From Clostridia bacterium (GTDB lineage Bacteria > Bacillota_A > Clostridia > Christensenellales > Aristaeellaceae): a stretch of 64,000 bases of DNA. This document shows, piece by piece, positions 3,991 through 14,323 of the stretch. A program made the translations under genes and the position numbers. Position 1 is the stretch's first letter, and the number at the start of each line of letters is the position of its first letter. The notes below the pieces were generated by a model that was not told where the DNA came from, ran no database searches, and saw nothing but the letters and a program-made list of their open reading frames with translations. The DNA lies in contig JAFQEB010000021.1 of assembly GCA_017399225.1 (NCBI GenBank), positions 1 through 64,000 of the forward strand, written 5' to 3'.

Positions 3991-5170
3991 ATTTCAATCC
4001 ACCCACCCCGAGCAGGGTGGGACATTCATGTACTGGATGTCCTTGGTGTTGTACAGGCCATTTCAATCCACCCACCCCGAGCGGGGTGGGACTCTGCTCA
4101 CCCAGCACAATTTCAGGGTGGTCGATATTTCAATCCACCCACCCCGAGCGGGGTGGGACGTCGATCACGCCAAAGGCGTCCCTGCCAAAGACATTTCAAT
4201 CCACCCACCCCGAGCGGGGTGGGACGCCATCCGGGCCGGGTACAGCGCGAAGACGGCGATTTCAATCCACCCACCCCGAGCGGGGTGGGACGTCGTGATC
4301 GTTCCGGAGACGGCGCCTGTGTTTAATATTTCAATCCACCCACCCCGAGCGGGGTGGGACGTCGAGGGGCCTTTGATTGTTAAGATCACGGACGTATTTC
4401 AATCCACCCACCCCGAGCGGGGTGGGACTTATGGCGTGTCGGCAAAGTTAAGCATGATAACCATTTCAATCCACCCACCCCGAGCGGGGTGGGACGGGAT
4501 TCATAACGGCCGGATGCACGGCGCAATAGGATTTCAATCCACCCACCCCGAGCGGGGTGGGACGCCATGACGCCCATCCTATTAAGATCGACCGCTACCA
4601 TTTCAATCCACCCACCCCGAGCGGGGTGGGACACCTGGTCGGGCTGATTAACCAGGCTGTAGCGCAATTTCAATCCACCCACCCCGAGCGGGGTGGGACT
4701 GGGCCGAGACAGAGGCCCAGGGCATCAACATCAAATTTCAATCCACCCACCCCGAGCGGGGTGGGACCCTCCAGGCTGACCCTGGACAGCTGGCCCGTGG
4801 AATTTCAATCCACCCACCCCGAGCGGGGTGGGACGCATCTTCTTGGGCTGCTTGCCGTTGGTCTTGTAATTTCAATCCACCCACCCCGAGCGGGGTGGGA
4901 CTGGTCGGGGCAGCCTTACGGTCGTCGCCGTTAGATTTCAATCCACCCACCCCGAGCGGGGTGGGACCGAGCGTCTGGGACTTCGTGCTGGCGTTGTAGT
5001 AATTTCAATCCACCCACCCCGAGCGGGGTGGGACCCGGGCTGCGTCTGGGACGGCTGCCCCGAGGGCAAATTTCAATCCACCCACCCCGAGCGGGGTGGG
5101 ACGCAACGGCCGCAGCGGCGCCTGGTACGTACCCGTCATTTCAATCCACCCACCCCGAGCGGGGTGGGAC
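3991..5170 (-). CRISPR. Type I-C CRISPR array, 18 repeats and 17 spacers
   Basis: The 33-bp repeat, read on the minus strand, begins GTCCCACCCCGCTCGGGG and ends GTGGATTGAAAT, with an 8-bp stem (CCCACCCC/GGGGTGGG). The GGATTGAAA(C/T) end is the hallmark of I-C crRNA 5' handles, so the array is transcribed leftward, like the cas operon. Repeats start at 3991, 4060, 4127, 4193, 4259, 4328, 4396, 4463, 4531, 4600, 4667, 4735, 4802, 4869, 4935, 5002, 5070 and 5138. Spacers are 33-36 nt and all differ. Only the repeat at 3991 carries a substitution (AGCAGGG for AGCGGGG), as expected for the leader-distal end. Short peptides repeating HPARGGWIE here are translations of the repeats. Confidence 0.98.
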
Positions 5171-5345: not shown

Positions 5346-5636
5346 CTACAGGATTAGGTCCCCCTCGATCTCAAAGGTTTCTTTGGCACCGATGTGAGTG
5401 ACCTTGTTTTGATAGCTGTTGCCCAGCGTGTAGAAACGCAGACTATCAAAGTTAGTGTCGATGAGCTGTTCCAGTTCGTGCTTCAGCAGTTTATACTGGC
5501 TGTTGTCAAGCACGCATTCAAAAACCGAATTCTGCACCCGCGTACCGTGAGCGACGCACTTCTTGGCGACCATGCGCAGGCGGCGTTTGCCAGCAGAGGT
5601 CGTTGTGTTGACATCGTAAGTGATCAAAACAAGCAT
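5346..5636 (-). CDS. cas2: CRISPR-associated endoribonuclease-fold protein Cas2
   Basis: A 96-residue Cas2 that dimerises and bridges two Cas1 dimers in the spacer-integration complex. It begins MLVLITYDVNT, with the ferredoxin-fold first strand and the conserved Asp in YDV. RVQNSVFEC follows, then a C-terminal strand that swaps between subunits. I chose the ATG at 5634-5636 because GGAGGGAAACC precedes it; an in-frame ATG at 5660 would overlap cas1 and lacks a ribosome site. It is the last cas gene, 14 bp after cas1, and the CRISPR leader follows directly. Confidence 0.95.
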   Translation of the reverse strand: MLVLITYDVNTTTSAGKRRLRMVAKKCVAHGTRVQNSVFECVLDNSQYKLLKHELEQLIDTNFDSLRFYTLGNSYQNKVTHIGAKETFEIEGDLIL

Positions 5637-5650
5637 GGTTTCCCTCCGAC

Positions 5651-6682
5651 TCACTTCCACAGGAAGGGGGGATATTCGTCAATGTCTCCGCGAATGTAAC
5701 GGGCAAGAAGCAGCGATTGCACATAGGGAACCAATCCCCAGGGCAGTTTCTCCTTCAGGAAGGGATGGGTAATCTCGTCACGTTTCTTCTCCTGCCAGTG
5801 TTTCAAAAATAGCTTCCGGCCGTTGTCATTCAGCAGGACAGTGCCGCTTTCCTGACGGTCGAAGTGCTTGTCCTGAATGATGCGGTTGTTGATCAACGTC
5901 AGTACCAGGCGATCAGCAAAGGGGGCGCGCAGCTCTTCTTCAAGGTCGAGGGCAAGGGACTTGCGTCCCGGGCGATCCTGGTGGAGCAGGCCAACATAGG
6001 CATCCAGGCCGACTGCTTCCAAGGCAGCGGCGCAATCGTTGGCCAGCAAGGTGTAGGCAAAAGAAAGCATGGCGTTCACATTGTCCTGGGGCGGCCTGCG
6101 GTTTCGGCCGTCGAAGATGAAATCCACCTTCTGGCTCAAAATCAATTCGTCAAACGCGCTGAAGTATGCAGCGGCAGCCTCTCCTTCAAGGCCGCGGAGA
6201 GAGTCCAGCTCCGTTCCGCTGCGGATGAGGGGAATGAACTTCTGGAGCTGTTCGGAGGCGGCCTTGACCAGGCTCTGATTGATCCGCAGCGCGTGGTCGC
6301 GCAAGGCTCGTTCCAAAATCCAGCGAGAATTGTAGACCTTGCCGGTGATCATGTTGCGCACGATGGTGCAGCTGCGGGCATGGCTATCGGCAATGCGGTA
6401 TTGCTCTCGCCGGAGGTATACGTTCCCCTGGGACATTCCGTTTACCCGGGCGAGGAATCTACCGTTAGGCGTCATGAAGGTGAGCTGAATGTTGCGCTGG
6501 GCGCACTCACCCATCAGGGCCGGTGTGGCTCCGGCATAGGAGAAGCTGATGATACCTTCCAGATTTAACAAAGGAAACCGGGCTGTATCTTCATCGCCAC
6601 GGTTGACGACCACGTTACCATTGCTGTAAGAAAGAAACAGGTCTTCGCTGGTGATGTAGAGTGTATTGAGCAGCTTTCTCAT
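5651..6682 (-). CDS. cas1: CRISPR-associated integrase Cas1, type I-C
   Basis: A metal-dependent integrase that inserts prespacers at the leader end of the array. The 343-residue protein has an N-terminal beta domain (MRKLLNTLYITSEDLFLSYSNG) and a helical catalytic domain with E166 in GLEGEAAA, H234 in GLLHQDRPGR and the acidic cluster DLEEE at 246-250. These match the Glu/His/acid metal-binding set. It overlaps cas4 by 4 nt (ATGA) at its start. The length and organisation are those of I-C Cas1, and no key residue is missing. Confidence 0.97.
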   Translation of the reverse strand: MRKLLNTLYITSEDLFLSYSNGNVVVNRGDEDTARFPLLNLEGIISFSYAGATPALMGECAQRNIQLTFMTPNGRFLARVNGMSQGNVYLRREQYRIADSHARSCTIVRNMITGKVYNSRWILERALRDHALRINQSLVKAASEQLQKFIPLIRSGTELDSLRGLEGEAAAAYFSAFDELILSQKVDFIFDGRNRRPPQDNVNAMLSFAYTLLANDCAAALEAVGLDAYVGLLHQDRPGRKSLALDLEEELRAPFADRLVLTLINNRIIQDKHFDRQESGTVLLNDNGRKLFLKHWQEKKRDEITHPFLKEKLPWGLVPYVQSLLLARYIRGDIDEYPPFLWK

Positions 6683-7332
6683 GCGTTATCCTCCAACCTG
6701 GCTTTGATGTAGGATGACACATCGGAATATTTACTAAGCTTGGGTAGGCAGAGATCCCGCAGCGAGCAGGCGTTGCAGCCCTTGGTCTGTCGTGCCTTGG
6801 GCGTATGGTGCGCGTTGTAATACTTTTGCATTTGGTCAAACATCTGCGCGACCTCATCCCGTAGCGGAGCATCCAGAGAAACGACCTCCCGCCGGCGGGT
6901 CTCGCCATAGAACAGGCTGCCCTCCGGAATGTCGCACAGCAGTATCTCCTCCAGGCACATGGCCTGGGCGCAGAGCTGTAGTCTGTCGGCATTGTTTTCC
7001 TTGGGTTCGCCACGCTTATATTCCACCGGGTAGGGCTTCCATGTTCCTTCAAAACGGGGTAAGGTTACGCCCGCCGGATCACGGTGAAACTCTACCACAT
7101 CACAAGCACCGCTGATGCCCAATTTGTCTGAAAAGACCCGCAGCCCGCGCAGGATCAGCAAATCACCGCGAAACTCATGGGAAGTACCATCGTGCGCTCG
7201 GCTGTGGAAGATGCGGCCATCGGTAGTGCGTTCATTTTCCTGCCATTGCTGCTCAATGTGGATCAGTGCCCATTGCCTGGGGCAATAGGCAAAGTGCTGT
7301 AAACCGGAAAGCTGCAACGGCTCGCGGGCCAT
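6679..7332 (-). CDS. cas4: CRISPR-associated Cas4, RecB-like Fe-S exonuclease
   Basis: A 217-residue Cas4 that trims and orients prespacers according to their PAM, acting with Cas1 and Cas2. The Fe-S cluster ligands are visible: one Cys near the N-terminus (YCPRQW, C17) and three near the C-terminus (GCNACSLRDLC). Between them are the RecB nuclease motifs GACDVVEF and PVEYKRG, then the QxxxY-like helix QLCAQAMCLEE. It starts 1 nt after the cas7c stop and overlaps cas1 by 4 nt, so the adaptation genes are translationally coupled to the interference genes. Confidence 0.96.
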   Translation of the reverse strand: MAREPLQLSGLQHFAYCPRQWALIHIEQQWQENERTTDGRIFHSRAHDGTSHEFRGDLLILRGLRVFSDKLGISGACDVVEFHRDPAGVTLPRFEGTWKPYPVEYKRGEPKENNADRLQLCAQAMCLEEILLCDIPEGSLFYGETRRREVVSLDAPLRDEVAQMFDQMQKYYNAHHTPKARQTKGCNACSLRDLCLPKLSKYSDVSSYIKARLEDNA

Positions 7333-7333
7333 A

Positions 7334-8167
7334 TCACATACCCTCGATCACTTCGCAGGCCAGGCCGGGCAGTTCGTCCAGCTGGATGTCATAGTCCTCC
7401 ACGGATGCAGGAGCATCGACCTTGGACTTCACCTTCAGCAGCCGATGCACCTTAGCAGAGGAATACTGGCCGTCCTTGCAGTTATGCTCCCACCAGTAGA
7501 GCCGCACCACTTCCATGGAGCCATCGGGCCGGGCAGCAGAGGCATCGTTGATAAACAGGGTGCGCAGAGCTTCCTTCACCACCAGTGCATCCTCCCGGGA
7601 GAAGCCGGTCTTTTCGGCCAGCTGCACATTGATGGAACCCTTCACCTGATACAGGCCGAAGCGCACAAAGTGCTTCATCCCCATGGTATCGCTGCCCCGG
7701 TCGGCTTCGCTCTTACGCTCACCGCTGACGCTCTTGGTGATCTGCATGGAGTAGGCATCCACCGGGTTAACGCTGACGGCCTGATGGACGGACACCGGGC
7801 CGCGCACGCCAACGGAAGCACATCCAAAGCCTTTGAAGGCAAATACCTGGCCGAAGGCACGCACGTCCAGCCATTTTTCGCAGGCGGTGTGGGCAAATTC
7901 ATCTTGCGATTTGATCTTTTCCAGGAACTTGGCACGGTCCTTCAAGCTGATGAACCCATCATCCGCGCGGTCATCGGATTGAACGAAAACAGCGTGTCCC
8001 ATATCCTGCATACGGTTGCGGATCTTGCGCTTGATGCACACATCAGACATCTCACCAAAGCCCTTGTAGTCCGTGCGGGGCCGATTGCCGTTGAGAGGAT
8101 CGCCGTTGGGGTTGGCATTGGTGACGGAAAGCAGAACAGCAAAGTCGATCTTCTTGTCAAACTTCAT
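7334..8167 (-). CDS. cas7: Cascade backbone protein Cas7c (Csd2)
   Basis: A 277-residue Csd2/Cas7 protein, the repeated backbone subunit that coats the spacer part of the crRNA. The family N-terminus is clear (FAVLLSVTNANPNGDPLNGN), followed by RTDYKGFGEMSDVCIKRKIRN and a central glycine-rich FAFKGFGCASVGVRGPVS segment. The start at 8167 has GGAGGAACATACCG ahead of it and overlaps the cas8c stop by 11 nt. Several copies per complex are expected from the family. Confidence 0.96.
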   Translation of the reverse strand: MKFDKKIDFAVLLSVTNANPNGDPLNGNRPRTDYKGFGEMSDVCIKRKIRNRMQDMGHAVFVQSDDRADDGFISLKDRAKFLEKIKSQDEFAHTACEKWLDVRAFGQVFAFKGFGCASVGVRGPVSVHQAVSVNPVDAYSMQITKSVSGERKSEADRGSDTMGMKHFVRFGLYQVKGSINVQLAEKTGFSREDALVVKEALRTLFINDASAARPDGSMEVVRLYWWEHNCKDGQYSSAKVHRLLKVKSKVDAPASVEDYDIQLDELPGLACEVIEGM

Positions 8168-8558
8168 CGGTATGTTCCTCCATTTCTTCGGGTTCCTTCT
8201 TAGTGTAAAGCGCGCTCTTTTGCAGATAGTAGCCAGGGAGATAGCTTTCGGTCAGAGGCTTGCCGTAATCCTCAGAATCTTCGAGAGATAGGTGGAGTTG
8301 CTCCATGATCTCGCTGATCAGTCTTTCGTATTTTGTGCGAAGGCCAATGTGCAGTCGGGGATAATAGGCATTTTTAAGTTGTTCCATGATGACCATGAAG
8401 GCGTAGCCGGGGCGCTTGACGAATACGGACTGCATTCGGATCGCATTGGGTTCGCGCTTTTCATCCGGGTCATAGGTATCACGTTCAATCTTCTCCATCA
8501 CGGCCAGCAAACGTCCCCATTGATAGCTTCGATCCTTGCGTTCGGGTTCCAGTGCCAA
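8157..8558 (-). CDS. cas11c: Probable internal small subunit Cas11c (in-frame start inside cas8c)
   Basis: In type I-C systems the Cas11 small subunit is known to be made by internal translation of the 3' part of cas8c. Here a near-perfect ribosome site AAGGAGG (8567-8573) lies 8 nt before an in-frame TTG at 8556-8558, codon 461 of cas8c. Translation from it gives a 133-residue helical protein starting (M)ALEPERKDRSYQWGRLLAV. That GRL(L/F)AV(M/L)E region is where the family's Cas11c segment begins. No better internal start (ATG or GTG with a ribosome site) is apparent nearby. Two or more copies per Cascade are expected from the family. Confidence 0.7.
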   Translation of the reverse strand: MALEPERKDRSYQWGRLLAVMEKIERDTYDPDEKREPNAIRMQSVFVKRPGYAFMVIMEQLKNAYYPRLHIGLRTKYERLISEIMEQLHLSLEDSEDYGKPLTESYLPGYYLQKSALYTKKEPEEMEEHTDEV

Positions 8559-9938
8559 TTCGAGTTCCTCCTTCTTATGGTCGATGTAGTATTTTCGTAT
8601 GGCTGCGCAGGCGATGCACAGCAGCCTGTTGCGGTTCGTCTTGGTGTAAATCTGGAGATTGCCAGCTCTGGTTACCAACGCCTGCATGATATCCAGCGGG
8701 AATACAGCCTGGTCAATGCGGCAGGAGAGCAAACGCTGCATCTGGGGTGCGATCATTTTTTCGTCTGGCTCCACCTTGCCAGTCTCGCCGCGCGGTGTGC
8801 CAAAGGCAAAGGCAATGATGTTGTACAGCAGCGGCGATTGTATGCCGTTGTAGTAGTCGTTCCAGCAGCAGGTTTCGTCCCAGCGTGCCAGTCGCTCAAG
8901 GAAGTCCGAGCCGAACATTTCGTTGTAGTAGGTGATGGCCAGGCGGCCGGTGGTGGCTGCATCAAAGGCGGCAATGATCACCTGATCCTCGGGCTGCCAC
9001 TTATCCTGATAACCTGCCAGCTTGCGCCGGAGATCTTGGCGGTAGCTCTGATAATCCGGCAGGGATTCTTCTTCCTCAAACTGAAATTGCAGCGGCCATA
9101 TCGGCTTGGGAACAGCCCGGCCCTGAGGATTCCAGCACACAAAGGCTCGGCCGCCCTGAACCGTCCCCTGGGTGCTGATGAGCCACTTGAGGGCGTTGTG
9201 GGCCTTCTGTGAGGCGAGGTAGCCCACGGAGGCTGCCTCCTCCGGCTCGGCAAAGCGACCACGGTAAGTGAAGTTGGAGGAGTCATTGGCGGAGATGATC
9301 TTTGCATTGCCGTTGAGGGAAAAGGCGCCTTTCAGGTGCTGCCATGTGATGTGTGTATCCTCTCCTGTCAACATGCAGAGATTGGTCTCGCCTTGCTTTT
9401 GCGATAGGTAGTAGGAGGAGTAAGCCTTCATCAGAGAAACGTCCTCCCATACGGCAGAACGGTCTGAAATGCCAAAGCCAAGCACACGCCAACAAATCAT
9501 GTCCTTTTCCTTGTCGGTGGATATTCCGGCGTTGGTCAGGTCGCTGCGCAGCGTGCGCTGCCGGATATAGGTCAAAACCACCTTTGCTTTAGGGTGTGCG
9601 TATGCTGATTGACACCATTGCGTGAGGTTGTTAATGTACAGGTCAAACTTGACCTCATCATCGCCCAGCAGGTAGCCCAGTTGCTCGCACAGCGGGTGGG
9701 CGGCAGGACTGCTTGTACGGCCAGAGGATTCCTCCGTCACCGGAATAATGATTTTCTTATCCTTTTCAGCTGATTTAGCACCGACGAACCTTCCATCTGC
9801 ATCAATAGTGACCTCGATCTGCGCCTTAGTCACAATGTGGCCGATGGGGGCCAGTGGCTCTTCCTTACCCTCCTCATAGATACCGGCAAGGCCTTCCATG
9901 GCCTCGTAGGTTTCAAGTGCCTTTTGCAAAAGCCCCAT
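8157..9938 (-). CDS. cas8c: Cascade large subunit Cas8c (Csd1)
   Basis: A 593-residue Csd1 family protein, the type I-C large subunit that reads the PAM and recruits Cas3. Recognisable Csd1 segments are the N-terminal MGLLQKALETYEAMEG, WCQSAYAHPKAKVVLTYI and LCMLTGEDTHITWQHLKGAF, then the helical C-terminal region with GRLLAVMEKIERD and LQKSALYTKKEP. The start codon overlaps the cas5c stop by one base (TGATG). Its C-terminal 133 codons probably also encode a separate small subunit (Cas11c) from an internal start, listed separately. Confidence 0.95.
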   Translation of the reverse strand: MGLLQKALETYEAMEGLAGIYEEGKEEPLAPIGHIVTKAQIEVTIDADGRFVGAKSAEKDKKIIIPVTEESSGRTSSPAAHPLCEQLGYLLGDDEVKFDLYINNLTQWCQSAYAHPKAKVVLTYIRQRTLRSDLTNAGISTDKEKDMICWRVLGFGISDRSAVWEDVSLMKAYSSYYLSQKQGETNLCMLTGEDTHITWQHLKGAFSLNGNAKIISANDSSNFTYRGRFAEPEEAASVGYLASQKAHNALKWLISTQGTVQGGRAFVCWNPQGRAVPKPIWPLQFQFEEEESLPDYQSYRQDLRRKLAGYQDKWQPEDQVIIAAFDAATTGRLAITYYNEMFGSDFLERLARWDETCCWNDYYNGIQSPLLYNIIAFAFGTPRGETGKVEPDEKMIAPQMQRLLSCRIDQAVFPLDIMQALVTRAGNLQIYTKTNRNRLLCIACAAIRKYYIDHKKEELELALEPERKDRSYQWGRLLAVMEKIERDTYDPDEKREPNAIRMQSVFVKRPGYAFMVIMEQLKNAYYPRLHIGLRTKYERLISEIMEQLHLSLEDSEDYGKPLTESYLPGYYLQKSALYTKKEPEEMEEHTDEV

Positions 9939-10663
9939 CAGGTCACCTCCCCGTATTCACGCAATCCTGAGAAATTGCCCGTCTCCTCACCAAAGGTCTT
10001 CATGCTCATGGCTTTGATGGGCTTGTGCCTGGGGCAATCTTCCGGCCGGACGAATTTGATGATCCCCTTTTCCATCACCGGTCGCCAGAGGTTGACGGTC
10101 ATTTTGCCTGCGGTTTCCTCGGAATATGCCTCATCAGCATAGGTCATGCCATGGTACATCACGCCGAAGGAAAGCTGTGGCAGATCATCATAATAGCCTG
10201 CTCCATCACCAAACACGCAAGGTTCTACATAGGCCTGACATTCCCTGGTCCCCAGGAATACGTCTCTGCGACCACCGCGGCGGATCATCTTTTTGGCGAT
10301 CTCATGGTGCTTGTTTTCGTTTCTGTCGCCAGCCAGTTCGGGACGGTTCATGTTCCACTCGAAATGGGCGCGTACCTGATAGCGGCAGTCCTTCAGGTAG
10401 GTGTAGTAAGCCAGATCGTTGCCGCCGTTGTACTTGATGGGACGGATGCTCTTGACCTCCGTCTGGATGCGGTTCATGATACGCACCTCATCTATATACC
10501 AGATGATGGTGGGTTTCCAATACACAGAAGACAGAACGCCTTTGAGTGCCTCGTATGTAGGCACCTGGTAGCTGCTTTTCTCTCCGCCCACGCGCATCAG
10601 CGGGTCGGCGAACAGGGCATACGGCCCATAGACCTCGAACTCTACAATATTAGGGTGTTGCAC
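9938..10663 (-). CDS. cas5c: Cas5c (Cas5d), pre-crRNA processing endoribonuclease
   Basis: In type I-C this protein replaces Cas6: it cuts pre-crRNA at the base of the repeat hairpin and then stays on the 5' handle within Cascade. The 241-residue protein has Y48 (SSVYWKP) and K118-H119 (NENKHHEIAKK), positions that match the catalytic Tyr/Lys/His reported for Bacillus halodurans Cas5d. The N-terminal FEVYGPYALFADP strand and the C-terminal MKTFGEETGNF complete the RAMP fold. Its start lies 22 nt inside the end of cas3. Confidence 0.95.
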   Translation of the reverse strand: MQHPNIVEFEVYGPYALFADPLMRVGGEKSSYQVPTYEALKGVLSSVYWKPTIIWYIDEVRIMNRIQTEVKSIRPIKYNGGNDLAYYTYLKDCRYQVRAHFEWNMNRPELAGDRNENKHHEIAKKMIRRGGRRDVFLGTRECQAYVEPCVFGDGAGYYDDLPQLSFGVMYHGMTYADEAYSEETAGKMTVNLWRPVMEKGIIKFVRPEDCPRHKPIKAMSMKTFGEETGNFSGLREYGEVT

Positions 10664-13008
10664 AGATCATTTCCCTCCTTTATACCGATGTGTTCATCAT
10701 AACAGTCATCATTAAGAACATAGATGCTGCCATCCAGGCGTGTGGACAGCATACCTTTTTTCTTCATCTGCTCGATTTGCCCGGATGTGACGGAAATGGT
10801 GTAAGGTTTCGCATTCTCCAAAGTTGTCTTCACACGGGAAAGGGCGTATCGGGAAAGCTTTTCTGGCAGTTCGCCAATAAAGGTTTTTCCTTTGCCGTAT
10901 GGCACGAGGATGCTTTCACTGTTGCTGTCAAACACCTCAAACCATTCCCCTGCCGTGCGGAAGGCCTGGTTGAGCATATAAGGGGATGAGGGCTTTGACA
11001 GGAACTGCGTGTTGGTCGAAAGCAGTTCGAAAAGATATTGTTCGTTGATATAATAATCCTGTGCACGCTTCGGCATATCGCCGTACAGGGCAGTATAATA
11101 ATCCCGCACCGCTGCATCTGAGGCAAGATCGTGACCATATCTCTCAGGGTGAAGATGATATTCCGCCAGCAGCTTGGTCAAGGCAGTTTGTGCCTCGCGG
11201 ATCTCCTTCAGCGAACCCAGCCTTTCATCTTTCAGCGTGCAGACGCGCACAGGCTGCGGCTCAGTATGTTCGCCATGGCGGTTGCAGCGCCCAGCTGATT
11301 GCACGATGCTGTCTAAACCGGCGGCCAAGCGAATAACTGAACCGAAGCTGATATCTACGCCTGCCTCGATCAGTTGGGTGGATACGCAGATCAGCTTCTC
11401 CTTCCCTGCCAAGGCTTCGTTCAGTTCTTCAAGCACATGCTTGCGGTGCGCCATGCACATACCGGCGGACAGGTGGAAAAGCTTTGCATTTGTCGTTTCG
11501 CCCAGTGTGCGGAACAAATCGGCAGCCTCACGCTTGGTATTGCAAACGACCAGCAGGCTGGTGGTGGATTCAAGCGTTTTGAGTGCAAGATCGGCAAGCT
11601 CCGCCATGGATAAGGAACCAGCATCCTGGATTTTTGTGCGTTGGAAAAGTGGCGCATATTGCTTGAACATGGTCTCGCTGATCAGCGGCTCGCATGGGAG
11701 CATTTTGCGTGCTGCTTTGTCGAAAGCGGGTTGTGTAGCAGAGCAAAGCACCACAGTCGCTTTGCAGCACATGGCCAGGAAATTGACGGCGCAGTTGAAC
11801 ATCGAAAGCATTCTGGGCGGCAGAGACTGCACTTCATCAATGATGATGACACTTTCACATAACGCATGGAAACGCCTCACCGAGGACATCTTGCCGCTGA
11901 ACAGCGTATTCAGCAGCTGTACAAAGGTGGTGATGATCATGGGTGCGTCCCATGTTTCCTGCATATATTCTGTTGCCGCTGCTTTCTCTGGTGTTGCTTC
12001 TTCCTGCACCAGATTGGAATGATGCTCCAGCACGGGAATGCTGTCACCCACCGCCGACCTGATCACATCTGCATTCTGCTCGATGATGGAAAGGAAAGGG
12101 GCTACATAGAAAATCCTTTGCATCTTGTTCTTCTTGGCATGGAGCACTGCAAACCGTAAGGCTGCCAGCGTTTTGCCGCCGCCGGTGGGCAGGTCGAGCC
12201 GGTAAAGCCCAGGGTCGTTCTTTGCAGCCTCGGCGCAGCGGTCGGAAAAAGCTCTTCGCGCCAACTGGATGGGTTTCTCCTGCGAAAAGGAAGCAATGTG
12301 TGCCTCGACCCGTGCGGCGCATTCTGCCCAGTCAGGCGGGTTGTTCGGTGGAAGGGGAAGGTCGTCCATAAAGCAGCGGGTGTCTGTTCTGTCTGCTTCA
12401 ACGATGGCCGAGGTGATCAGACGCGCCAGCATCCCCAGAGCATAGCAGAGTTCCTTTTGTTTTCTGACGCAGGGCGTGAGCTTGCTTTGAATGTAGGCCT
12501 CGATCTCTTGCTCTGCATCCTCAAAAAGCCGTTCGATTTCTTTCGGGCTCGCGCATTCTTCGTAAAAGGCCGAAATTGCCCGCCGGTCATATTCAGGCTG
12601 ATGCTGCAACCGATGTTCAAAACCACTTTGGTGCTGTACATCCCACAGGTCAATCAAACCATGGTGGCTGCCGATACTTATAGCAATCAACTCAGCCGTG
12701 ATATTCCTAAACACCGATTCTCTCTTCGAATGAAACTGCTCCAGTATACAGCGTACGCCAGCAAATGTATGGATCACGCTGCCCTTACGGACATATTCGC
12801 CAGCACTCGCCTTGGCGATGTACACATCAAATTCATCCGTAAACTTACCGCAGTCATGTAACAATCCTGCAAGATAGACGGTTGAACCCAGCCCGATTGA
12901 TTCAAGGGAAGTTCGTGCTAAAGCGGCAACGGAACGTGAATGCTCCGCGCATGTTTGAATACGACATGCATTTGTTTGTGGATCAATGACTTTATGTGCT
13001 GTATACAT
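10642..13008 (-). CDS. cas3: CRISPR-associated nuclease-helicase Cas3
   Basis: The effector recruited to Cascade-bound DNA, which unwinds and degrades the target. The 788-residue protein has an N-terminal HD nuclease with H23 (AEHS), H51-D52 (LLHDCGKF), the HH pair at 115-116 (GSHHG) and D206 (EADRTD). The SF2 helicase follows with Walker A LPTGGGKT (273-280), DEVQ (391-394), motif III CSATQP and motif VI QSAGRCNRHGE. All catalytic residues expected of an active Cas3 are present. The start at ATG 13006-13008 has AGGGAGA before it. It is the first gene of the operon, and its promoter lies inside a guide-RNA target site. Confidence 0.97.
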   Translation of the reverse strand: MYTAHKVIDPQTNACRIQTCAEHSRSVAALARTSLESIGLGSTVYLAGLLHDCGKFTDEFDVYIAKASAGEYVRKGSVIHTFAGVRCILEQFHSKRESVFRNITAELIAISIGSHHGLIDLWDVQHQSGFEHRLQHQPEYDRRAISAFYEECASPKEIERLFEDAEQEIEAYIQSKLTPCVRKQKELCYALGMLARLITSAIVEADRTDTRCFMDDLPLPPNNPPDWAECAARVEAHIASFSQEKPIQLARRAFSDRCAEAAKNDPGLYRLDLPTGGGKTLAALRFAVLHAKKNKMQRIFYVAPFLSIIEQNADVIRSAVGDSIPVLEHHSNLVQEEATPEKAAATEYMQETWDAPMIITTFVQLLNTLFSGKMSSVRRFHALCESVIIIDEVQSLPPRMLSMFNCAVNFLAMCCKATVVLCSATQPAFDKAARKMLPCEPLISETMFKQYAPLFQRTKIQDAGSLSMAELADLALKTLESTTSLLVVCNTKREAADLFRTLGETTNAKLFHLSAGMCMAHRKHVLEELNEALAGKEKLICVSTQLIEAGVDISFGSVIRLAAGLDSIVQSAGRCNRHGEHTEPQPVRVCTLKDERLGSLKEIREAQTALTKLLAEYHLHPERYGHDLASDAAVRDYYTALYGDMPKRAQDYYINEQYLFELLSTNTQFLSKPSSPYMLNQAFRTAGEWFEVFDSNSESILVPYGKGKTFIGELPEKLSRYALSRVKTTLENAKPYTISVTSGQIEQMKKKGMLSTRLDGSIYVLNDDCYDEHIGIKEGNDLCNTLIL

Positions 13009-13060
13009 GTTTTTCTCCCTTTATGGTCAATAAACGCACCAGATATACCTGTCGATATGT

Positions 13061-13089
13061 ATTTTAACGTATGGGGCAGGCTTTGTCAA
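13061..13089 (-). promoter_or_regulatory. Promoter of the cas operon
   Basis: On the minus strand: consensus TTGACA (13084-13089), a 17-bp spacer and TAAAAT (13061-13066), giving a leader of roughly 45 nt before cas3. It is a strong promoter on its face, which makes a repressor plausible. Confidence 0.85.
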
Positions 13090-13120
13090 CAGAACATATT
13101 TAAATTTATCAAACAACGAA
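13084..13120 (-). promoter_or_regulatory. Predicted Cascade-binding site (PAM plus protospacer) over the cas promoter
   Basis: On the minus strand the bases TTC (13118-13120), the canonical I-C PAM, are followed by GTTGTTTGATAAATTT (13102-13117). This is identical over 16 nt to the sequence after the lone repeat at 13161-13198. A 34-nt protospacer starting at 13117 would end at 13084, exactly the end of the -35 box. Identity stops after 16 nt, which would favour binding over target cleavage. The sequence match is directly seen; repression is inference. Confidence 0.8.
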
Positions 13121-13126
13121 ATCATC

Positions 13127-13155
13127 TTGAAATTCTGTGGTATTCTTGCTATAAT
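13127..13155 (+). promoter_or_regulatory. Promoter of the mini-crRNA
   Basis: Plus-strand TTGAAA (13127-13132), a 17-bp spacer and TATAAT (13150-13155) with an extended TG motif (TGCTATAAT). Seven bases downstream of the -10 is the first base region of the lone CRISPR repeat. The -35 box lies 6 bp from the PAM of the target site, so Cascade bound there might also limit this promoter. Confidence 0.85.
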
Positions 13156-13160
13156 ACATT

Positions 13161-13262
13161 GTCGCATCATTCACACTGTTCGATGCGTGGATTGAAATGT
13201 TGTTTGATAAATTTCCCGGAAAAGCAGAAGGCTGGGATACGAAAAGTATCCCAGCCTTCTTG
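13161..13262 (+). ncRNA. CreR-like cas-regulating RNA: single repeat, partial guide and terminator
   Basis: A stand-alone guide-RNA gene divergent from cas3. It begins with a diverged I-C repeat at 13161-13198: GTCGCATC, a 13-nt loop, then GATGCGTGGATTGAAAT. The stem CGCATC/GATGCG differs from the array repeat (CCCACCCC/GGGGTGGG), yet the 12-nt end GTGGATTGAAAT, which contains the crRNA handle, is identical. Next comes the pseudo-spacer starting GTTGTTTGATAAATTT (13199-13214), which matches the cas promoter next to a TTC PAM. It ends in a 15-bp hairpin (13226-13260). No ORF fits. Cas5c could process it and load it into Cascade to repress the cas genes; such CreR RNAs are known from other CRISPR types. 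Function here is inferred from sequence only. Confidence 0.85.
13226..13262 (+). terminator. Terminator of the mini-crRNA
   Basis: A perfect 15-bp stem (13226-13240 with 13246-13260, arm AGAAGGCTGGGATAC) with a GAAAA loop. The run of T after it is short (CTTCTTG), so termination strength is uncertain. Confidence 0.7.
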
Positions 13263-13263
13263 C

Positions 13264-13405
13264 ATATATCGGACTCGCTGGTTTTCTTGATAGGATTAAC
13301 TGGTTACACAATAGCCACACATAACACAAGCTTGCATACAATAAGCAATCCAATTCAGCAGACAGCATTCTAAGTAAGCCAATCTTATCTGGGCCGCCTT
13401 TCGCT
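13264..13405. other. Non-coding AT-rich boundary of the CRISPR island
   Basis: I see no gene, repeat or promoter in this stretch. It separates the mini-crRNA from the convergent esterase gene, and GC content rises on its far side. Confidence 0.5.
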
Positions 13406-14323
13406 TTATCCCAGATGCTTTTTGAGGAAGGCGTCCACCTCGTTCAGCGCCTCGTCACAGCAGAAGCCCCGCCAGCCGTGGTCGCCGCCCAGCACCTTCA
13501 CGAATTCAACCTCCTTGCCCAGCGCCCGCATGGCCTCGTAGAGATGCACGCTCTGCTGGAAGTTGACCGTCCTGTCGCGGCTGCCGTGCATGATCAGCAC
13601 CGGAGGGGCAGGCCTGTCCGCACTCAGGTAGCTCTGGGGCACAGTGGCCGCCGCCAGCTCCGGATGTTCCGGCACGGACAGATGACCGATGAGCCAGCCC
13701 TCGGGACAGTCGGGGCTGACATGCTCGCCGCAGCTGGGCTCGTAGCCCATCTCGCTCACGACCGTGGGGCCGTACCAGTCGACGATGCAGCGCACAGAGG
13801 CGTCGCCCTCGTCGCCGTCAGCGTTCAGGCAATCGTTGCCGGTAAAGCCCGCCATCAGTGCCGTATGGCCGCCGCTGGAATCACCCCAGACCGCTACCTT
13901 CTCCGGGTTGAAGCGGTACTTCTCCGCCCGGGCCCGCAGGAAGCGGATGGCCGTTTTGACGTCCTCCACCTGAGCAGGGAACTTCGCCGTGGTGGACGGA
14001 CGGTACATGACCAGCGCCACGCAGTAGCCCCGCTGGCACATGCGGAGCATCTCCGGCAGGTGGATGTAGACGTCCTGCCGGAACCAGGCGCTGCCCTGCA
14101 CGAAGACGATCAGCGGATTATCCCGGCGGTCGTTACGGGGCGTAAGATAGGAGATGGTCAGCTTCTCGCCGTCGCGCTCAGCGTAGACGATATCCGGCCG
14201 GAAGGCCACGCCGTAGCCGAAGGAATCCTGCCAGCGCACCTCGCGGGCGCCCTCGGGCAGGGCGGGGTTTTCAGGGAAGTTCTCATCCTCGTAGGAATAG
14301 GGCTGCAAAATCTCGCGGGGCAT
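13406..14323 (-). CDS. Alpha/beta-hydrolase esterase
   Basis: A 305-residue cytoplasmic carboxylesterase of the alpha/beta-hydrolase fold (BD-FAE/Aes-like). The nucleophile elbow is GDSSGG (S149), the acid is in HGSRDRTV and the catalytic His is in GGDHGWRG. An oxyanion-type loop FVQGSAW sits near residue 77 in place of the HGGxW motif of related lipases. There is no signal peptide. The catalytic acid and His spacing is typical of feruloyl or acetyl esterases acting on xylan-derived oligosaccharides, so it may assist the xylan enzymes 8 kb away, but the substrate is not determined. It starts 15 bp after the Dabb gene and is probably co-transcribed with it. Confidence 0.85.
   Translation of the reverse strand: MPREILQPYSYEDENFPENPALPEGAREVRWQDSFGYGVAFRPDIVYAERDGEKLTISYLTPRNDRRDNPLIVFVQGSAWFRQDVYIHLPEMLRMCQRGYCVALVMYRPSTTAKFPAQVEDVKTAIRFLRARAEKYRFNPEKVAVWGDSSGGHTALMAGFTGNDCLNADGDEGDASVRCIVDWYGPTVVSEMGYEPSCGEHVSPDCPEGWLIGHLSVPEHPELAAATVPQSYLSADRPAPPVLIMHGSRDRTVNFQQSVHLYEAMRALGKEVEFVKVLGGDHGWRGFCCDEALNEVDAFLKKHLG

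Follow-up and report, generated by a model that had tools for sequence, protein, structure and literature searches.

A one-repeat mini-CRISPR beside a Clostridia type I-C operon carries a guide to the cas promoter and is a probable autorepressor

The Clostridia DNA analysed here (64,000 nt, the whole of which is referred to as the window) was found to possess a one-repeat mini-CRISPR beside a type I-C cas operon, with a guide that matches 16 nt of the cas promoter beside a TTC motif. Judged from the sequence, the RNA of this unit very probably loads into Cascade and represses the cas operon, which would make it an autorepressor of the CreR type. The lone repeat, the guide, the TTC, the target, a hairpin and two consensus promoters are present in the window, and guide and target recur at related loci in the reading frame of Cascade. 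RNA-guided autorepression of cas genes would thereby be extended to type I-C, a subtype that ranks among the commonest, and up-switching of I-C systems would be predicted, for example when anti-CRISPRs remove Cascade. The signature (repeat tail, TTC and pairing in the order 5+1+5+1+5) is strong enough for such RNAs to be searched for computationally, and they would represent short natural guides for gene silencing without killing of the cell.

Type I-C operon and CRISPR array

Matches to NCBIfam models identified cas3, cas5c, cas8c, cas7c, cas4 and cas1c on the minus strand, which constitute a type I-C operon, accompanied by an array on the same strand:

10642..13008, minus strand: cas3 (NCBIfam), the first gene of the target operon
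9938..10663, minus strand: cas5c (NCBIfam), crRNA processing and Cascade
8157..9938, minus strand: cas8c (NCBIfam)
7334..8167, minus strand: cas7c (NCBIfam)
6679..7332, minus strand: cas4 (NCBIfam)
5651..6682, minus strand: cas1c (NCBIfam)
5346..5660, minus strand: open frame at the usual cas2 position, named by position and appearance only
3991..5170, minus strand: CRISPR array of 18 repeats of 33 nt with 17 spacers of 33–36 nt

When all 17 array spacers were compared with positions 13009–13400, the best match was 11/17. An alpha/beta hydrolase-like (esterase) gene at 13406–14323 on the minus strand, which scores below all NCBIfam cut-offs, adjoins the mini-CRISPR; no connection of this gene with CRISPR was seen.

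The guide RNA unit and its match at the cas promoter

The unit and its target, which lie upstream of cas3, comprise the following features:

13127..13155, plus strand: predicted guide-RNA promoter TTGAAA-17-TATAAT, a consensus match
13161..13198, plus strand: lone degenerate type I-C repeat of 38 nt, stem CGCATC/GATGCG
13199..13214, plus strand: guide GTTGTTTGATAAATTT, the first 16 nt 3' of the lone repeat, with the same letters as the target in the cas promoter
13226..13260, plus strand: strong hairpin with a 15-bp stem 3' of the guide, a likely terminator and RNA 3' end
13118..13120, minus strand: TTC PAM, directly 5' of the target, read from the sequence
13102..13117, minus strand: target (seed half of the protospacer), identical to GTTGTTTGATAAATTT, upstream of the cas -35
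13084..13117, minus strand: 34-nt footprint expected for Cascade, its far end at the -35 box
13084..13089, minus strand: predicted cas operon -35 TTGACA, of the promoter TTGACA-17-TAAAAT (13089–13061)
13061..13066, minus strand: predicted cas operon -10 TAAAAT of the same promoter

The unit stands divergent to cas3, outside the array and beside the cas genes, which is the CreR layout. Its lone repeat has the 3' 12-nt tail GTGGATTGAAAT in common with the 33-nt array repeat, and the position of the TTGAAA-17-TATAAT promoter predicts that the RNA begins near the first base of the repeat. The stretch from repeat to hairpin (13161–13265) has a folding z of -5.40. In Rfam, searched at E up to 1, the sole match was to a microRNA family; it covers the hairpin and scores far under that family's cut-off.

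Within the 64 kb, GTTGTTTGATAAATTT is found only at 13199–13214 (plus strand) and 13117–13102 (minus strand) with up to 3 mismatches allowed, a search that gave a mean of 0.07 matches in shuffled sequence, and exact guide runs after a TTC reached 9 nt at most in 20,000 order-1 randomizations of the promoter region. The identity over 16 nt given in the preliminary description is thus exact, with both copies located in the window. Its other readings of the site are also borne out, as minus strand 13120–13118, directly before the target, reads TTC and the identity stops at 16 nt, the seventeenth being C in the guide and A in the target. Since the array spacers measure 33–36 nt, 34 nt is a fair footprint, and the protospacer 13117–13084 finishes within the cas -35, at its final base, as had been proposed. 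A full-length self-targeting CRISPR spacer was rejected as a candidate, the match ending at nt 16 of about 34 in a search within the window.

The cas operon start is predicted at about 13054, which leaves some 46 nt before the cas3 ATG. Relative to this predicted start the paired 16 nt span about -48 to -63, and the -35 is reached by the unpaired half of the footprint alone. Should Cascade occupy a shorter stretch on the window guide, whose hairpin begins at about nt 26–28, repression would be weaker.

These distances also bear on an addiction arrangement like CreTA/CreP, in which the guide represses a toxin and the match to the cas promoter is incidental. The RNA is built in the same way, with a repeat-like element and a short promoter match, and CreA too pairs at nt 1–5 and 7–11, according to passages of PMC8501985. 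However, the promoter matched in the window is not that of a toxin and points into cas3, and the interval of approximately 46 nt ahead of the cas3 ATG would leave no room for a toxin gene, as expected of a CreR. Such an arrangement is considered very unlikely for the window.

Recurrence across related type I-C loci

Related loci were obtained by a Cas5c alignment scan of species genomes, of which the best 80 of at least 576 relatives were taken, so that close relatives are over-represented; the nearest relatives among these best 80 matches are ruminant-gut Clostridia MAGs. Further loci came from searches of other genomes, in which 30/32, 9/12 and 16/21 genomes with a Cas5c match were taken (most of the remainder being already in the set), and from a plasmid protein search, in which 13 of 27 records were taken and only L317 of these passed. 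The first counts comprised 174 loci, from which 26 duplicates with identical sequence at the cas5c start were removed (25 short copies of fetched regions, and L236, which equals L143), giving 148 distinct loci. Many are metagenome-assembled, and their independence is incomplete: L151, L155 and L165, for instance, are almost the same in this region.

Isolated repeat tails numbered 217 and were present in 109/148 loci. Two criteria were applied to them: with TTC required, a site agreeing with the tail's guide at 13/17 or better had to lie within 700 nt, and with no PAM presupposed the agreement had to be 14/17 or better. All 17 guide positions were weighted equally in site selection, and both criteria miss more degenerate repeats. 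L162, L164 and L256 pass at 13/17 only. L161 (12/17 with TTC) was dropped as a tandem-repeat artefact and L184 (an 11-nt match with CTC) was left uncounted.

A lone repeat with a guide matching a site upstream of cas3 or cas5c was found in 28/148 distinct I-C loci including the window, that is, in 27/147 related loci, with letters that are mostly different; in the other 120/148 loci the criteria used yielded no guide–target pair. Of the 148 loci, 134 have a cas3 match preceded by at least 300 nt of sequence, and 26 of those 134 are positive. TTC-flanked matches of at least 13/17 were given by 26 tails, compared with 0.4 expected from the cross-locus rate (88/46,498 pairs), a rate that overstates chance because the pairs include related loci. 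The relatives thus take the guide–target match far beyond chance. Covariation of guide and target across relatives, which the preliminary description had named beforehand as a check, came out positive in 28/148 distinct loci. The plasmid locus L317 is included in the tallies of 26 tails, 30 tails and 23 guides given in this section; it is excluded from the 28 (otherwise 29/148) and from the set of 25 TTC pairs used for orientation and run length, which contains no dropped duplicates.

With no PAM presupposed, 30 tails gave matches of at least 14/17, of which 23 follow TTC, three TTT and four other triplets, against a background TTC frequency of 2.1% of all positions. TTC as the PAM, taken as canonical in the preliminary description, accordingly emerges from the relatives' best matches by itself. 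For Neisseria lactamica, passages of PMC10865793 give TTC and TTT as the I-C PAMs.

After merging of guides with at least 13/17 common letters, the 23 distinct TTC/TTT guides showed the following numbers of mismatches at nt 1–17: 0, 0, 0, 0, 0, 14, 0, 1, 1, 2, 0, 13, 0, 2, 0, 1 and 7. Hence nt 6 and 12 account for 27 of the 34 mismatches within nt 1–16 and nt 1–5 for none, while each of nt 18–26 is mismatched in 16–20 of the 23 guides, so that identity is random from nt 18. The 3,159 cross-locus matches have a flat mismatch profile. The four matches of at least 14/17 without a TT PAM (L175, L166, L146 and L303) do not have the 6/12 pattern (1/7 mismatches), and three of them had looked repeat-like or weak in an earlier any-PAM list. 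When nt 6 and 12 are ignored, the match is unbroken to nt 16–18 in 16/25 TTC pairs, and in 9/25 a mismatch elsewhere breaks the run before nt 16; pairing in the relatives mostly extends to nt 17, in three blocks. As TTC was not assumed and nt 6 and 12 are bases reported not to pair in Cascade, the matches stand in the reading frame of Cascade, a frame that an operator bound by a protein would not produce.

The same comparison addresses a protein operator, the rival explanation named in the preliminary description, in which two 16-bp arms are the sites of a DNA-binding regulator. In the window the two 16-nt copies are indeed inverted with respect to each other, with about 80 nt between them. 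Across the 25 TTC pairs, however, guide and target share a strand in 14/25 and are on opposite strands in 11/25, at spacings of 39–514 nt, and the letters vary between most loci (21/25 guides are distinct). TTC precedes only the target copy, the repeat tail precedes only the guide copy, and the mismatches are concentrated at nt 6 and 12, so that an operator has become extremely improbable.

Among the closest relatives, the alignment shows a layout common to the window, L122, L123 and L124. Five pairing positions differ between the window and L123, all five of which are compensated, and two compensated changes each separate the window from L122 and from L124; nt 8 is unpaired in both of the latter. 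In L121, with 95% Cas5c identity, the 900 nt upstream of cas3 contain no repeat tail when up to 2 mismatches are allowed. L123 has a further degenerate repeat tail at a distance of 51 nt from the lone repeat (about 144–196 nt before cas3), which is perhaps the remnant of a two-repeat mini-CRISPR.

Compensation of this kind also bears on whether the unit is an array relic, or a captured solitary repeat of the Racr type serving as a decoy, with a self-derived spacer. Solitary repeats are known as RNA anti-CRISPRs, I-C included, in passages of PMC10651486. For a decoy the guide match is unnecessary, yet it has been kept across loci by compensation and in the Cascade frame, and no phage record matched 13001–13290; this origin is regarded as highly improbable. 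A bare scan of viral contigs with the 16-mer matched at least 120 stretches and was set aside, because 16-mer matches arise by chance and these carry no weight.

Positions of the units

The unit is divergent and located before cas3 in 17/28 loci, between cas3 and cas5c in 7/28 (L151, L155, L157, L162, L165, L256 and L261) and on the cas strand upstream of cas3 in 4/28 (L127, L189, L250 and L259). Within the group between cas3 and cas5c, the target lies 36–39 nt before cas5c in 5/7 loci, 12 nt before it in L256 and 600 nt in L261. This placement suggests separate control of the Cascade genes and of cas3.

In L127 the unit is on the cas strand about 370–470 nt before cas3, with its target falling within a predicted promoter that immediately precedes the unit. 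The RNA may thus repress its own promoter together with the operon behind it, as a leader-encoded form.

L317, from the Lacticaseibacillus paracasei plasmid pLPZ1, has a poorly conserved repeat-like tail about 366 nt before cas5c, and its match following TTC runs for 13 nt. This could faintly hint at a unit on a mobilizable plasmid.

Footprints and predicted promoters

The 34-nt footprint overlaps a predicted cas-strand promoter in 19/28 pairs, compared with 17% at random places within 300 nt; no overlap with any predicted promoter was found for 9/28 footprints. The paired 17 nt touch the -35 in none of the 19 overlapping pairs and the -10 in three (L127, L132 and L261). Apart from these three, the overlap comes from the unpaired far half of the footprint. 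The target is at least 250 nt from the cas gene in L127, L189, L250, L259 and L261.

Since the window pairing is itself upstream of the -35, which only the unpaired footprint overlaps, Cascade guided to the site might have an effect other than repression, such as activation or marking of the region. This is highly doubtful in light of related cases: passages of PMC10865793 describe repression of a TTC-PAM promoter in Neisseria gonorrhoeae by I-C Cascade without Cas3, and the known CreRs repress, as described in passages of PMC12737573 and PMC13131331.

Proposed mechanism

In the mechanism that we favour, autorepression by guided Cascade, the RNA would be made from about 13161. The crRNA of type I-C systems is processed by Cas5 and not by Cas6; in this instance Cas5c may process the repeat, or the RNA may load as it is. 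Cascade would then bind the target through guide nt 1–5, 7–11 and 13–16, with the far, unpaired half of its footprint on the -35, where RNA polymerase would be blocked. The pairing is probably too short for attack by Cas3. Once free Cascade is drained by array crRNAs or anti-CRISPRs, expression of the cas genes would rise, a step carried over from CreR.

A single I-C repeat–spacer unit lowered lacI in Escherichia coli as well as repeat–spacer–repeat did, according to the knockdown passages of PMC10865793, which fits the one-repeat form found here. In type I-F1, shortened R-loops bind and leave Cas2/3 untriggered (PMC7296934); if type I-C is alike in this, the chromosome would be spared.

For the I-C systems of Clostridia in general, a wider proposal may hold or fail with about equal chance when all its parts are taken jointly. 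It states that a fixed code is used, with pairing at nt 1–5, 7–11 and 13–17 only, at a site beside the cas promoter, such that the unpaired far half of the footprint lies on the -35 or -10. The guide would then contain no common promoter letters, so that other promoters are spared, and its pairing would be too short for Cas3. Guides and targets would be rewritten together in each lineage, and placement of the unit before cas3, in the operon leader or between cas3 and cas5c would provide separate control of nuclease and Cascade.

Comparison with known systems

Cas9 of type II-A reportedly represses its own operon by means of a long-form tracrRNA. The likeness is that a natural guide directs the effector against its own operon; that system uses Cas9 and a tracrRNA isoform, and the machinery is unrelated.

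Racr RNAs likewise have one repeat and often lie behind a predicted promoter. However, in the passages of PMC10651486 they are virus-borne inhibitors that mimic the repeat, with no basis in a guide–target match. Membership of the window unit in this class was rejected, given a guide match that is kept across loci and the absence of a matching phage record for the region.

The CreA RNA of haloarchaeal CreTA is similar in its degenerate repeat, in guide pairing at nt 1–5 and 7–11 with nt 6 and 12 free, and, for CreA in H. hubeiense, in the TTC PAM (passages of PMC8501985 and PMC9458426). Changes at nt 6 and 12 of CreA were without effect, and the others of its first 11–12 nt matter (PMC8501985, in the same passages). 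Unlike CreA, which in these sources silences a toxin RNA, the unit targets the cas promoter, and its guide–target identity has a third block at nt 13–16/17.

CreR, a cas-regulating mini-crRNA (Liu et al., 2023, Cell Host Microbe), is cited here through passages of the reviews PMC12737573, PMC13131331 and PMC12948488. The subtypes named in the passage of PMC13131331 are I-B, I-E and V-A, from which the window differs in having an I-C operon; the passage of PMC12737573 places CreR widely in type I, plus V-A, and does not name I-C. Competition by array crRNAs and loss of the effector to anti-CRISPRs are described for CreR in passages of PMC12737573 and PMC13131331. No report of CreR in type I-C was found among the open-access papers searched, and the 2023 CreR survey may list I-C. 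As in CreR, a crRNA-like RNA in the window has a partial match, with PAM, to the promoter of its own cas operon, and the unit is predicted to act in the same effector-guided manner. The CreR class being already described, the best reading of the unit is as a CreR-type RNA in a further subtype, one that the passages of the reviews leave unnamed. Some I-C units are set apart from CreR by their position between cas3 and cas5c.
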